Assembly (NCBI RefSeq): GCF_030695525.1
Contig: NZ_JAUYSS010000043.1
Location: 1 to 32,224 of the forward strand
Reading direction: 5' to 3'
From: Daejeonella sp.
Lineage (GTDB): Bacteria; Bacteroidota; Bacteroidia; Sphingobacteriales; Sphingobacteriaceae
DNA length: 32,224 nucleotides
Numbering within the stretch: the first letter of the stretch is position 1; each line of letters opens with the position of its first letter. Of this stretch, positions 8,851 to 14,944 are shown in pieces. Made by a program: the position numbers and the translations under genes. The notes beneath the pieces were generated by a model. The model made no database searches, was not told the origin of the DNA, and worked only from the letters and a program-made list of their open reading frames with translations.

Positions 8851-11800
8851 TTACATATTCCTCCTATACTGCCCCCCAACCTCATACAATGCATGCGAAA
8901 TCTGCCCCAGGGAACAAACCTTGCAAACTTCCATTAGGCTTTCAAAAATATTTTCTCCGGCAATGGCTTTCTGTTGAAGTTCTTTCAAAAGCTTAGCTGA
9001 AGTTTCCTCATTTCTTTGCTGAAAGGTTTCCAAAGCGCTGATCTGAAATTGCTTTTCTTCTTCTGTCGCACGGATGACTTCTGATGGGATGATGGTCGGT
9101 GAACCATTTTTATTGAGGAAAGTATTCACCCCAACAATCGGATAAGTTCCGTCGTGTTTCAGGGTTTCATAGTAAAGTGATTCTTCCTGAATGCGGCTGC
9201 GCTGGTACATCGTTTCCATGGCTCCCAACACTCCGCCGCGATCATTGACCCGTTTGAATTCCTCCAAAACGGCTGCTTCAACAAGTTCGGTTAGTTCTTC
9301 AATTATGAAGGCTCCCTGTAATGGGTTTTCATTTTTTGCCAGACCTAATTCCCGGTTGATAATGAGCTGTATCGCCATCGCCCTGCGTACCGACTCTTCT
9401 GTAGGTGTGGTGATCGCTTCATCATAAGCATTGGTATGCAGTGAATTGCAATTATCATAGATCGCGTAAAGCGCCTGCAAGGTGGTACGGATATCATTGA
9501 AATCGATTTCCTGAGCATGTAAAGATCGCCCGGAAGTCTGGATATGATATTTTAATTTTTGGGAGCGGTCATTGCCCTTGTATTTATGCTTGATAGCTTT
9601 TGCCCAGATAATTCTGGCCACGCGTCCGATCACAGAATATTCAGGATCAATTCCGTTAGAGAAAAAGAAGGAAAGATTGGGTGCAAACTCATCGATATGC
9701 ATCCCACGACTCAGGTAATACTCCACGAAAGTAAAGCCATTACTCAAGGTAAATGCCAATTGTGAAATCGGATTAGCTCCTGCTTCAGCAATATGGTATC
9801 CCGAAATGGAAACAGAATAGAAGTTCCTTACCTGTTTGTCGATGAAGTACTTCTGGATATCACCCATCATCCTAAGGGCGAATTCAGTTGAGAAGATGCA
9901 GGTATTTTGTGCCTGGTCTTCTTTTAAAATATCTGCCTGCACAGTACCTCTTACACTGGCAATTGCATAGGCTTTGATCTTATTATAGACATTTGCCGGT
10001 AAAACCTGGTCGCCGGTAAGTCCGAGAAGCATTAAGCCAAGTCCATTGTTCCCTTCAGGGAGTTCACCCTGATAAACCGGCTGATTTATGCCCTTTGCTT
10101 TGAAAATCTGTTCAATTTTGGCCTTAACTTCTGCCTGTAGCCCATTTTCAATGATGTATTTCTCACATTGCTGGTCGATGGCGGCATTCATGAAGAAGCC
10201 AAGCAGCATTGGCGCAGGACCATTAATGGTCATGGATACCGATGTGGAAGGATGGCAGAGATCAAAACCGCTGTATAGTTTTTTAGCATCATCAAGTGTC
10301 GCGATGCTAACCCCTGAATTTCCAATCTTACCGTAAATATCAGGACGTAGGCCGGGATCTTCTCCGTAAAGTGTGACCGAGTCGAAAGCTGTAGAAAGAC
10401 GGTGTGCCGGCTGTCCGAGGGAAACATAATGAAAACGCTTGTTGGTTCTCTCCGGACCGCCTTCGCCGGCAAACATTCGGGTTGGGTCTTCGCCTTCACG
10501 TTTTAAAGGGAATACTCCTGCAGCGTATGGAAACTCTCCGGGTACATTTTCAGTCAGTAACCAGCGCAGAATGTCGCCCCATGCTTCATATCTCGGTAAG
10601 GAGATCTTGGGAATTCTAAGTTTGGACAAAGATTCGGAATAAAGAGATTGCTTAATTTCCTTATCCCGGACTTTAAAAATGAATTCATCAGCCTTATATT
10701 TTAAGATCGTTTCCGGCCATTCACGCAATAATCTTCGGCATTCCGGATCAAGACTTTCTTCAAGTTTATTATATACATCAGTCAAAGGTCCATCTAAATC
10801 CTTTTTTAAGCCCTCTCCTTCGGAGAGGGTTTGGGTGAGGCCCAATACCCCCTTAACCTGAAACATCTGCTGAGCAATTTTACTCTGCGCATTTACCCAT
10901 TCGGCATAAGCTGAACTGCTTTCAACGATTTCTGCGAGATAACGGATCCGCTCTGGCGGAATGATATAACTCTTTTCGCTATGCTTTCCAATCAATTCCA
11001 TTTTTGCCTGGAAATCATATCCGGTTTTTCTTAAAATGGCCTTCATCAATTCCGCGAAGAGTTTATTCATTCCGGGATCATTGAATTGTGAAGCCATGGT
11101 GCCGATCACCGGCAGATCCTCATCTGCTGCATCAAACAATTGATGATTGCGTTTGAATTGTTTCCTTACATCCCTGATCGCATCCAGTGCCCCGCGCTTA
11201 TCAAATTTATTGATCGCAACAATATCGGCGAAGTCGAGCATGTCGATCTTTTCCAATTGTGTTGCTGCTCCAAACTCGGGAGTCATCACATATAAGGATA
11301 CATCACAATGTTCGGTGATCTCAGTATCCGACTGTCCGATGCCGGAAGTTTCAACAATGATCAGTTCGTATCCTGCTGCCTTACAGATATCAATCGACTC
11401 CTGAACATATTTCGAAAGGGCTAAATTGGCCTGCCTGGTTGCCAGGGAACGCATATAAACCCTTGGGTTATTGATGGAATTCATCCGGATACGGTCGCCC
11501 AATAAAGCCCCACCGGTTTTTCGTTTTGATGGATCTACAGAGATAATGGCAATGCTTTTATCAGTTTCGACCAAAAAACGACGAACCAGTTCATCGATCA
11601 GTGATGATTTTCCTGCTCCTCCTGTACCTGTTATCCCAATAACCGGGACTTTTTTATCTGCATTTAATTTTTCAAGTTCTTTCAGAAAGCTTTCTGTCTG
11701 CTCAGGATGGTTTTCTGCCAGGGTGATCGCGGAAGCTATGGCATTGACATTCTTCTGCTGAATGCCCTGAAGTTCATTCGTCAGGCTGGTATGGGTTTGG

Positions 11801-12228
11801 AAATCACATGCCTGGAGCATATCATTGATCATTCCCTGAAGCCCCATTTTTCGGCCATCATCAGGTGAATAGATCTGCGTAATGCCGTATTCTTTAAGTT
11901 CTTTGATTTCAGTCGGTAAGATCACGCCACCACCACCGGCAAATATTTTAATATGTCCTGCGCCCAATTCCTGCAGCAGATCATACATATATTTTAAATA
12001 TTCAATATGCCCTCCCTGATAAGATGTCATGGCAATACCTTGTACATCCTCCTGAATCGCACAGTTTACCACCTCCTGCACAGATCGGTTATGACCCAGA
12101 TGGATAACCTCTGCCCCGGAGGACTGAAGTATGCGCCGCATAATGTTTATGGTTGCATCATGCCCATCGAACAGGGCAGCTGCTGTAACAAAACGTATCT
12201 TATGTTTAGGTTTGTAGACTTCGGTCAT
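8851..12228 (-). CDS. icmF: Fused isobutyryl-CoA mutase IcmF
   Basis: 1125 aa, the usual size of the fused enzyme. Order: B12-binding domain with DGHDAT at 21-26 and the GGG loop near 98-101; MeaB-like G-protein chaperone with P-loop GTGGAGKS at 201-208 and NKFDKRG later; linker; methylmalonyl-CoA-mutase-type catalytic barrel ([47 protein letters not shown]). It uses adenosylcobalamin to interconvert isobutyryl-CoA and n-butyryl-CoA, and some members also act on isovaleryl-CoA, with the G domain loading and protecting the cofactor. The linker near residues 460-474 carries an odd inserted peptide ([13 protein letters not shown]) coded by a palindromic repeat. A KilA-N gene follows after 12 bp. 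Confidence 0.94.
10811..10853. repeat. Palindromic repeat inserted in frame in icmF
   Basis: CCCTCTCC-TTC-GGAGAGGG (10811-10829) followed by TTTGGGTGAGGCCC. This is the look of a dispersed intergenic palindrome, yet here it codes, on the minus strand, for [13 protein letters not shown] in the linker between the G domain and the mutase domain. The frame is kept and both domains are intact, so the insertion seems tolerated. Confidence 0.65.
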
Positions 12229-12502: not shown

Positions 12503-13036
12503 GGAGGTTCTCGCTTTCGCGAGAATGACAAGCATGGGGGTATGAGGGAGATTCCAGCCTTCGCTGGAATCGAAATGCGGAACCGTATGATAAATGATGC
12601 TACCTTTTACTCATTTTTTGTCTTTAGATATTTCGGGAATTGCAGTTTTGGGAAATGAAGGAATATTTTGTTTACATGCTAACTAATACATTTCATAACG
12701 TTTTGTACATCGGTATTACAAACAATATCCGCAGAAGAGTGTATGAACATAAACGAAAGCTCGTTTATGGATTCACAAGTAAGTACAATTGCACAAAACT
12801 TGTGTGGTATGAAAAGTTCACTGATGTGAACTCAGCCATCGCCAGGGAAAAACAATTAAAGACCTGGCAACGATCATGGAAAAATACTTTAATTGAAAAG
12901 CTTAACCCAGATTGGCATGATCTTGCCGCGAATTGGTTCATTAAAAGTGATAAGTAACCCAAGCCGATTCCAGCGAAGGCTGGAATCTCCTTACTCTCCA
13001 ACAACGCTTGTCATTCCCGCGAAAGCGGGAACCTCC
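12503..13036 (+). mobile_element. GIY-YIG gene between double-palindrome inverted ends (putative autonomous element)
   Basis: Left end: A hairpin 12503-12530 (TTCTCGC-TTTC-GCGAGAA, then TGACA), 16 bp, B hairpin 12547-12572 (ATTCCAGC-CTTC-GCTGGAAT). Right end: B' 12965-12990, 18 bp, A' 13009-13036. The right end reverse complemented reads almost like the left end over about 70 bp, including outer GGAGGTTC, ATGACAAGC and the identical B hairpin. The only gene inside is the GIY-YIG nuclease (12655-12957), preceded by 80 bp that recur in the deleted copy at 13353-13585. No target duplication is apparent by eye. That this is a mobile unit is my inference from the two matching copies. Confidence 0.65.
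12655..12957 (+). CDS. Small GIY-YIG endonuclease-family protein
   Basis: 100 aa from ATG 12655 (MKEYFVYMLTN). A TTG 15 bases upstream is open but would start before the family motif and is not needed. The protein is a single GIY-YIG domain: VYMLTN near 6-11 stands for GIY, YIG at 18-20, R26-R28 region (NNIRRRVYEH) with the conserved Arg and His, and the catalytic-type Glu in AREKQLKTW (E65). Such stand-alone domains resemble the nuclease part of UvrC and of homing enzymes and cut DNA with a metal ion. They occur in many copies in Bacteroidota, with unknown roles. Here the gene sits inside inverted palindromic ends, suggesting a part in spreading or excising them. Confidence 0.88.
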   Translation: MKEYFVYMLTNTFHNVLYIGITNNIRRRVYEHKRKLVYGFTSKYNCTKLVWYEKFTDVNSAIAREKQLKTWQRSWKNTLIEKLNPDWHDLAANWFIKSDK

Positions 13037-13102
13037 GCTAACTTAACTTACAAAGAAGAAACAGAAGGAAGCGAGAACATTAAATACACCATCATATAAT
13101 TC

Positions 13103-13337
13103 CTTTTCAGCGAAGGCTGGAATCTCCTTACCCTCGCCCAACCATGTTTGTCAACCGATAAAATCAATTCACGCTAAAGCGGGAACCTCCGACAATACAT
13201 TTAAGGCAGGATCAAGGAAAGCTGTAATCTCATACCCAAAACCATTCTAAAATTTTATATCTGCGATGGATGGAATCTCCTCACCTCCAACCACGTTTGT
13301 CAACCGATAAAATAGGTTCCCGCAAAGGCACAATCTC
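13103..13337. repeat. Degenerate B'-A' units with an internal duplication
   Basis: B'-like 13103-13127 and a broken A' ending AAAGCGGGAACCTCC near 13190; a weak B' near 13209-13231; B'-like 13261-13280 and a broken A' near 13313-13337. A segment of about 42 bp occurs twice (13121-13164 and 13274-13313), with the exact shared word GTTTGTCAACCGATAAAAT. In both, the A' stem is interrupted at the same place, so this damaged form was itself duplicated. No gene is present. Confidence 0.6.
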
Positions 13338-13352
13338 ATTATTTAAGAGTCG

Positions 13353-13585
13353 GGAGGTTCCAGCTTTCGCTGGAATGACAAAATTTTTTGGTTAAAAAGG
13401 AGATTCCAGCCTTCGCTGGAATCGCAAGAAGGAACCGTATTATAAATGATGTAGTGCTTCTACTCATTTTTTGTCTTTATATATCTTTGGAATGAGGAGT
13501 GATCTGACTCCGATTCCAGCGACGGCTGGAATCTCCTTACCCTCCCCCCACCCCGCGTGTCATTCCCGCGAAGGCGGGAACCTCC
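13353..13585 (+). mobile_element. Internally deleted (MITE-like) copy of the GIY-YIG element
   Basis: Same order of ends as 12503-13036: A 13353-13380, 18 bp, B 13399-13424, core, B' 13510-13535, 22 bp, A' 13558-13585. The core starts with the same pre-gene sequence as the full element (GGAACCGTAT, ATAAATGATG, CTACTCATTTTTTGTCTTTA) up to an ATG at the matching place, then jumps to AGTGAT, a word found at the end of the GIY-YIG gene, and on to CCGATTCCAGCG. Nearly the whole gene is therefore missing. This is the usual relation of a non-autonomous element to its parent. Confidence 0.65.
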
Positions 13586-13990: not shown

Positions 13991-14944
13991 TTACAACCAG
14001 TTTTTCTTTTTGAAATAAATCAGGGTAATGACTGATGACAAAACCATTAGCGAAATAGCAAAGACATAGCCATAATCCCAGCCCAGTTCAGGCATAATCT
14101 TAAAATTCATGCCATAGACACTGGCGATCAATGTTGGAGGCATAAAGGCAACAGTAGCTACCGTGAAAATTTTAATGATCCGGTTCTGCTCGATGTTCAC
14201 CAGACCCATAAAGGTATCCTGAAGGTATTCCAATCGTTCAAAGGCAAATTTATTGTGCTCGATCAGTGAGCCGATATCCTTGATCATGATCCGCAAAACA
14301 GGCATATATTCTTCAGGAAATAAACTGCTTTTCATCAGGGAGGATACTAAACGCTGCTTATCCACAATGTTTTCGCGCATCAGTATGTTGTAGTTCTGGA
14401 AGGAGGCAATTTTTAAGAGAATCTCCTCATCTGAACGTTTTCTGTTCAGGGTTAATTTTTTATTCAGGTCGGCGATGTCTTTCGCGAGACCTTCAATGAT
14501 ATCTGCATCCTGTTCAATTCCTGTTTCAAGAATCGTGAGCAGGATATGATACCCGTTTGTAAATGAACCCGGATTTGATTTTATCTTTTTGACGGATTCA
14601 CCAAAGGTCTTCAAATCGTCATCCCGGTAGGTAAACAGGATTCCTTTTTCAAGGATAATTGAAACAGGGCAATAATCAAATTCCTGCATTTTGGGCGACA
14701 GGAAATTGGAGTTGATGATCAGTTCATCATCCAGTTCATTAAAGCGGGAAGAACTTTCAATCTCTGAGGACTCTTCTACTGAAGAGTATTTGATATCAAA
14801 ATAGGTTTCTATGGTCACCTTTTCTTCAACGGTAGAATTTTGAAGATCTACCCAAACCATGTCGTTAAGCGGGATTGTACGCAGTAAAGTGATGTCACTT
14901 TCTTTCGCCAGTCGTTTATCTTTTTTATAATATATCCGGAGCAT
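13991..14944 (-). CDS. corA: CorA-family magnesium/divalent cation transporter
   Basis: 317 aa, the usual length. A long soluble N-terminal part with helices ends in two membrane segments. The signature GMN, which forms the ion selectivity loop at the pore mouth, is at 278-280 (ASVYGMNFKIMPELGW), after the first segment (FTVATVAFMPPTLIASVY), and the second segment follows (YGYVFAISLMVLSSVITLIYF). The C-terminal KKKNWL matches the family's basic tail. It works as a homopentamer in the inner membrane, mainly importing Mg2+ and sometimes Co2+ or Ni2+. It is divergent from the radical SAM gene, with a shared short control region. Confidence 0.92.
   Translation of the reverse strand: MLRIYYKKDKRLAKESDITLLRTIPLNDMVWVDLQNSTVEEKVTIETYFDIKYSSVEESSEIESSSRFNELDDELIINSNFLSPKMQEFDYCPVSIILEKGILFTYRDDDLKTFGESVKKIKSNPGSFTNGYHILLTILETGIEQDADIIEGLAKDIADLNKKLTLNRKRSDEEILLKIASFQNYNILMRENIVDKQRLVSSLMKSSLFPEEYMPVLRIMIKDIGSLIEHNKFAFERLEYLQDTFMGLVNIEQNRIIKIFTVATVAFMPPTLIASVYGMNFKIMPELGWDYGYVFAISLMVLSSVITLIYFKKKNWL

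Follow-up and report, generated by a model that had tools for sequence, protein, structure and literature searches.

Genes for a small GIY-YIG nuclease are paired with palindromes of the CGTC/TGTC type, an association that we regard as well supported: the gene stands between inverted copies of such palindromes, gene-less derivatives accompany it, the arrangement recurs across phyla, and the gene co-occurs with repeat load. We put at roughly two in three the probability that the nuclease is the cognate enzyme of these tagged palindromes and that together they form one selfish unit, which spreads gene-bearing and gene-less forms of itself by cutting. In the account on which we draw, that of Di Nocera et al. 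2013 (PMC3733652), this is one of two large superfamilies of REPs, and it has been without a known enzyme since its definition in that year; a candidate can now be named, namely a small, expressible protein whose gene, in many phyla, has palindromes of this type on either side and is associated with repeat load.

The window, by which we mean the whole stretch of 32,224 nucleotides that was analysed, is contig C69 of a 4.2-Mb Daejeonella genome. Two related units lie there in the gap between a minus-strand gene (8851-12228) for a methylmalonyl-CoA mutase with MeaB and B12-binding domains and a CorA gene (13991-14944). The first (12503-13036) reads A-B-leader-GIY-YIG gene-B'-A', and the second (13353-13585), on the CorA side, is a gene-less version of it with the four corresponding hairpins. 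The features are as follows.

12503-12531 (stem 12508-12525), no strand: left outer palindrome A, with a TGTCA tag when read on the minus strand
12547-12572 (stem 12550-12571), no strand: left inner palindrome B, complementary to B' at 26 of 26 nt
12573-12654, plus strand: leader, largely common to the gene-less units
12655-12957, plus strand: small GIY-YIG nuclease gene (100 aa), with the family's conserved residues kept
12965-12990 (stem 12966-12987), no strand: right inner palindrome B'
13006-13036 (stem 13014-13031), no strand: right outer palindrome A', with a TGTCA tag on the plus strand
13099-13331 (13099-13190 and 13256-13331), no strand: decayed right-end pieces, a REP-like cluster between both units (families D1, D2 and D6)
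13353-13381, no strand: gene-less unit, left outer palindrome A
13399-13424, no strand: gene-less unit, left inner palindrome B
13425-13510, plus strand: gene-less unit, leader fused to the gene's last bases by internal deletion (junction GAGGAGTGAT)
13511-13536, no strand: gene-less unit, right inner palindrome B'
13558-13585, no strand: gene-less unit, right outer palindrome A'

A preliminary description of this DNA had proposed an inverted-ended unit around the GIY-YIG gene and, adjoining it, an internally deleted copy, and both proved to be real. In the gene-bearing unit the B arms are fully complementary, the A arms 94% so across 31 nt, and the A, B, B' and A' hairpins each fold better than the average of their shuffled sequences (z -3.08, -4.61, -4.13 and -2.95, with 2, 0, 0 and 3 of 200 shuffles, respectively, folding equally well). 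The gene-less unit has equal ends and a leader that matches that of the full unit in two blocks (85% and 86% identity); its sequence stops near the ATG and restarts at GAGTGAT beside B'. The two hairpins differ in format, A having a TGTC(A) tag, an AT:AC start (an imperfect first stem pair) and the tail CCTCC, and B having an AT:AT start, a loop of 4 and no GTC tag. A search of the window against Rfam matched no intron or known element, and identity with either was rejected on that ground.

The genome holds seven PF01541 matches, two of which, besides that of the window, have the layout of the window unit. At C50 a protein 89% identical to that of the window is encoded in the A-B-gene-B'-A' layout, and at C59 one of 69% identity has the same layout with different stem letters, whereas the gene at C54 (51% identity) is flanked by TGTCATTGCGAG..GAAGCAATCT repeats instead; C27 retains a broken gene. 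Across the copies the stem letters change in pairs (TTCTCGC/GCGAGAA, TTCCCGC/GCGGGAA, TTCCTGC/GCAGGAA, TTCCAGC/GCTGGAA and, at C59, TTCCGGC/GCCGGAA), so it is the pairing that is conserved and not the letters. Gene-less derivatives are found elsewhere as well: units reading A-B-leader-B'-A' are present at C61, C37 and C6, and one junction is common to several loci. In particular, the window's deletion junction GAGGAGTGAT is the same at C61, has one base changed at C37, and is found, identical or nearly so, in gene-less units of the relatives G009 and G017. The flanks at C37 match, by eye, those of the units in G009 and G017, and the unit on C47 of G009 occupies a further place. Because the junction at C6 differs from that shared by C69, C61 and C37, at least two deletion derivatives have been dispersed.

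Comparison of orthologous places, which the preliminary description had hoped would yield empty sites and exact boundaries, gave the former in part: there are orthologous sites with and without the unit, and no exact boundary. The mutase-CorA gap of five relatives (G009, G011, G010, G004 and G001) is diverged in sequence and has no such gene, one palindrome being retained in G010. At the site orthologous to C6, forms of the unit exist in G009 and G017, and another palindrome cluster stands there in G019, G007 and G011. An exact empty site or boundary, or a target duplication, was not found at the orthologs of the window or of C6, where the flanks are too diverged. Palindromes of a CGACCCYGAAGGGGTCG-type family were observed at the ortholog of the window locus (G009:C10) and at orthologs of C6 (G019:C47, G007:C115 and G011:C26); the presence of these different palindromes at the same intergenic places in unit-free relatives makes the sites look like shared hot spots.

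Hot spots of this kind raise the matter of neutral crowding, that is, of mobile genes and repeats both gathering by chance in intergenic space, for which the other palindrome families at the same two sites in relatives speak. The evidence of related loci is otherwise. The window protein (P0001) was matched in 48 of 60 genomes (E 0.001), and the matches are of two kinds, the first patchy, multicopy and 35-92% identical, with copies that are often broken, and the second about 26% identical and present once per genome among the matches listed. For each locus we compared 450 nt upstream with 450 nt downstream and set the best inverted alignment against 100 shuffles. Of 51 rows of the first kind, 36 had flanking inverted repeats above all 100 shuffles and 15 did not; this set excludes fragments, some weaker complete matches and the broken copy L085, and counts one locus (G031:C17:5779) twice (as L051 and L077), once above and once below the shuffles. 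In the same genomes, a second GIY-YIG-like family had inverted flanks at 0 of 19 loci (20 loci, less L098, which had no hit).

A wider set of loci gave the same picture. From a profile scan of a species-genome collection we kept the best 80 of at least 577 relatives (at least 587 stretches), which by their titles, in an informal tally, represent about twenty phyla and include Patescibacteria, Cyanobacteria and Chloroflexi as well as Bifidobacterium; nine plasmid loci, taken from 9 of 33 matching plasmid records, bring the total to 89. One of these had too short a flank, and inverted flanks above all 60 shuffles were present at 63 of the 88 testable loci (the best 80 of at least 577 relatives, plus plasmids) and not at the other 25, as against 3 of 89 control windows. 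The gene without these ends is thus not the rule, contrary to what the preliminary description had named as its refutation.

The repeats next to the gene have a common format. When all 5-mers were counted within 200 nt of the gene and compared with far sequence, the most enriched word in both locus sets was GTCAT, and not GTAG: it was near the gene in 48 of the 51 rows from relatives versus 13 of 40 far windows, and at 87 of the 89 loci (best 80 of at least 577, and plasmids) versus 36 of 69. Other words near the second GIY-YIG-like family are ascribed to conserved orthologous flanks. GTC-palindromes were bilateral and inverted at 57 of 87 loci of the wider set (best 80 of at least 577, and plasmids; two flanks were too short) versus 2 of 87 far windows, and in those 57 loci the nearest ones lie at a median distance of 28 nt before the start of the gene and 14 nt after its stop. 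Two of the nine plasmid loci (L141 and L144) have no such flanks. In the Bacteroidota set the bilateral count was 20 of 51 rows (control, just 2 far windows; second family, 2 of 19), a count that is low because the detector is blind to the window type, in which A starts AT:AC. The shuffles, the control windows, the second family, the GTCAT enrichment and the inverted order make flanking by chance unlikely, and those controls, together with the tight spacing and inverted order, leave neutral crowding with very little probability in our estimation.

As to the second GIY-YIG-like family itself (L086-L105), its proteins are of 96 to 124 aa, the conserved pattern is absent by eye, and flanking words are shared among its loci; it is possibly a retired or repurposed nuclease.

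Beside the gene the repeats read [CT]GTC-AT-stem-loop-stem-AT-C.., examples being CCGTCATCCTCGGGCTTGACCCGAGGATCCA in S. meliloti, CCGTCATTCCCGCGCAGGCGGGAATCTAGA in N. gonorrhoeae and TGTCATTCTGAGTGAAACGAAGAATCTC in Planktothrix. Many relatives have an AT:AT stem start, a loop of 4-5 and a short tail, and several have longer loops or imperfect stems. The stem letters track protein similarity (Mantel r 0.28, p 0.0005, 60 loci), a correlation that host relatedness can also produce.

This format fits a described superfamily. According to Di Nocera et al. 2013 (PMC3733652), REPs fall into GTAG-tagged and CGTC-tagged superfamilies, the latter with the tag CGTC, often TGTC or CCTC, with AT complementary at the first two stem positions, with short loops and tails, and mostly in head-to-head pairs; Neisseria dRS3 and Rickettsia RPE-4 and RPE-6 are among its members. 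In the same account GTAG repeats go with RAYT, whereas CGTC/TGTC repeats "apparently lack a dedicated transposase", and its authors suggest that such a transposase is extinct or that many other transposases serve; the string 'GIY' is absent from the paper's main text. The superfamily's format is matched by palindromes beside our gene in several groups (Rhizobiales, Sphingobium and Neisseria among them), rhizobial repeats also fit, and the hosts overlap (Neisseria, S. meliloti, Bradyrhizobium and Rhodopseudomonas). As in the superfamily, copy number is high in this genome and genus, and palindromes pair in opposite orientation; opposite-strand neighbors were also counted among the listed places in Bacteroidia genomes. 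Unlike the superfamily as described, many palindromes here have longer or imperfect stems, and the window pair is a variant (A with the tail CCTCC and AT:AC, B without GTC).

The likening of the window units to REP/REPIN palindromes and their RAYT transposases was apt, with the difference that the repeats fit the CGTC/TGTC superfamily, to which an enzyme had so far not been assigned. As in a REPtron, an enzyme gene lies between inverted tagged palindromes and many gene-less pairs exist. Unlike in a REPtron, the enzyme is of the GIY-YIG and not the Y1/HUH type, and the tag is of the GTC-AT type and not GTAG. A likeness to MITEs is also evident, in that a gene-bearing unit has short derivatives with inverted repeats and no gene; unlike MITEs, the unit has no DDE transposase, and no target duplication was seen, the flanks being diverged. 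The system would work in the manner of a REPtron, but the Y1 enzyme and GTAG tag of RAYT, the transposase of a DDE transposon and the setting of an intron homing endonuclease were not found; on this ground we regard it as new, while the repeats themselves are known.

Gene and repeat load go together in 197 Bacteroidia genomes. Repeats were counted with the pattern GTCATTNCN{6,22}GNAATCT, which limits the count to GTCATTNC...GNAATCT repeats and whose backward control gave 0-4 per strand; the gene was scored with profile A1, a strong match having E below 1e-27, and genomes with 10 or more repeats were classed as repeat-rich. A strong match was present in 39 of 55 repeat-rich versus 28 of 142 repeat-poor genomes (odds ratio 9.9, p 2.8e-11, a raw ratio that ignores relatedness), those 28 having a strong match yet fewer than 10 repeats of the pattern. 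Label permutation confined to families gave p 0.00025, and among the 25 families that held both states (122 genomes) the mean was higher in 19; part of the association can reflect host relatedness. Seven genomes with at least 20 repeats had no family member at E 1e-10, and mean repeat numbers were 6.0 in weak-match versus 9.0 in gene-free genomes. One of these seven, from the window genome's family (G035), has 389 GTCAT-type repeats and at E 1e-10 lacks both the GIY-YIG gene and any Y1 transposase; it holds either orphan repeats or a diverged enzyme.

The same genomes bear on the idea that RAYT or another Y1 transposase moves the repeats, the GIY-YIG gene being carried along incidentally. Genes of both types are widespread in Bacteroidia, Y1_Tnp being present in 118 of the 197 genomes with, taken alone, an odds ratio of 1.9 for repeat-rich genomes (p 0.054, raw). 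Within GIY-YIG strata, however, Y1 has no effect (odds ratios 0.5 and 1.1), and the GIY-YIG gene keeps 8.4 and 20 within Y1 strata (all raw); it was on this comparison that RAYT was rejected as the mover. Di Nocera et al. 2013 (PMC3733652) likewise found no tyrosine transposase gene with CGTC-repeat flanks. We therefore give a Y1 mover scarcely any credence.

The protein itself is a single domain of 100 aa whose only Pfam match is PF01541 (E 1.4e-16), and the unit encodes no Y1 (HUH) and no DDE transposase. Among 65 sequences Y7, G20, R28, E65 and N84 are invariant, positions that we take to be those of the GIY-YIG active site, and Y18 and H32 are nearly so. The predicted structure has the GIY-YIG fold (mean pLDDT 93.5), and its sole match to a solved structure at E < 0.001 is the UPF0213 protein 1zg2 (E 5e-4); UPF0213 GIY-YIG proteins (PDB 1zg2 and 1ywl) are the closest solved sequences and fold, the similarity being weak, and the branched-DNA nuclease Slx1 is next (E 0.007 to 0.1). 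On this predicted fold, a natural reading is that a structure-selective nuclease would meet the tagged hairpin, in single-stranded DNA, or a cruciform. A tblastn search (E 1e-5) of 50,697 phage records gave no match to the gene, and carriage by sequenced phages was rejected for that reason.

With Slx1 among the nearest folds and the gene commoner in repeat-rich genomes, one might suppose a resident nuclease that serves the host by resolving repeat cruciforms and is kept nearby for its usefulness. The patchy distribution, the several copies per genome, the broken copies and the absence of the gene from the orthologous site in close relatives all speak against a host-serving role, which we judge improbable.

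Sites compared between close relatives outside the Bacteroidota allow a further alternative to be weighed, in which the palindromes spread by other means and the nuclease, as a homing passenger, cuts them and copies itself in. Free-standing GIY-YIG homing endonucleases are known, among them the Seg proteins of T4 and I-TevI, and the likeness lies in a selfish gene with a GIY-YIG catalytic domain that may home into a target; unlike those enzymes, the protein is a catalytic domain alone, the window has no Rfam intron, the target would be a dispersed repeat, and gene-less derivatives spread. In Sphingobium plasmids the gap between fnrL and a response-regulator gene holds palindrome-gene-palindrome in seven records among the matches listed; three occupied sites were read, one gene having a one-base gap. 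Two relatives have in this gap a single near-symmetric palindrome with the tag at both ends, another has a different repeat, and an outgroup has another palindrome. In a tree with that outgroup the gene-bearing clade is nested among gene-less plasmids, so that the tree leans to gene gain, with weak support at the key node (one inner node 0.207). S. meliloti Ak57 provides an independent case of a deleted unit that adjoins a full unit. Sinorhizobium sp. C101, whose left flank is 96% identical to that of Ak57, has a single palindrome in each of the two positions, near-symmetric where Ak57 has the deleted unit and imperfect where it has the full one. In Shinella H4-D48 there is no palindrome where Shinella HZN7 carries the unit.

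A symmetric palindrome can be either a homing target or the scar of recombination between stem repeats. Homing would account for the near-symmetric single palindrome at three gene-free orthologs (the two Sphingobium plasmids and C101) and for the nested Sphingobium clade, but such a palindrome is also obtainable by gene loss between direct stem repeats, and two sites (L226 and the Shinella site L231) are without one. Moreover, homing alone leaves unexplained both why repeat load tracks the gene and why gene-less units with a common leader and junction stand at several loci. Both the link with repeat load and the dispersal of the deletion family favor an enzyme that spreads gene-less repeats over homing alone, which we consider unlikely, though it deserves more weight than the other alternatives.

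Under the preferred reading, that of a cognate enzyme, we infer binding, cleavage and a repair route that moves DNA. The nuclease would recognize the CGTC/TGTC-tagged palindrome as tag plus hairpin, probably when replication lets it extrude as a hairpin or cruciform, and would nick or cut it; copies would then arise at new intergenic sites, either as the host repairs the break or as the excised fragment inserts again. The items copied could be single palindromes, palindrome pairs or pairs that enclose the gene, and internally deleted pairs, having retained their ends, could be mobilized in trans, in the manner of REPINs with RAYT. GIY-YIG enzymes hydrolyse DNA and, to our knowledge, have no rejoining activity, so movement would need host repair. 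The loci compared gave no sign of movement, of a cut site or of a target duplication; since neither cleavage, transposition, exact ends nor target duplication was found, the autonomous element of the preliminary description is one that we infer.

It is also rather probable, in our view, that the GIY-YIG nuclease is the dedicated spreader of the CGTC/TGTC superfamily throughout bacteria, Neisseria dRS3, Rickettsia RPE and rhizobial repeats included, which would make elements driven by a GIY-YIG enzyme and host repair a class beside that of RAYT/GTAG. If so, the repeat families known individually from Neisseria, Rickettsia and rhizobia would have a common driver, and a new type of enzyme for moving bacterial DNA repeats would be added; we know of no GIY-YIG enzyme described as such a mover. 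Among the best matches in the open-licence PMC literature (preprints being outside this scope) none links GIY-YIG proteins to REPs.

Three other arrangements were observed in Daejeonella and its relatives. A 177-bp element with inverted ends GTGGCTGTTGCTCAACTC lies inside hairpin A of the C6-orthologous unit (L245:2777-2953, on G009:C1), bordered on both sides by TTTC, which resembles a 4-bp target duplication. An interspersed repeat some 250 bp long, which contains GCCGGAGGAGGTAGCTTCCGGC and GCCGGAACTACCCCGGAGGAAAGG (L013:1789-2037), has more than 100 matches among those listed for the members of the genus that were searched (G009, G019, G017, G011 and G007). Finally, a GIY-YIG gene of another subfamily (L005, G000:C47:15558-15764) directly follows a tRNA-Leu gene (L005:1303-1389), and a 16-nt copy of the tRNA's 3' end region (CTCCGAGTACAAAAGC) lies beyond it, as if a small element had come to lie at the tRNA.
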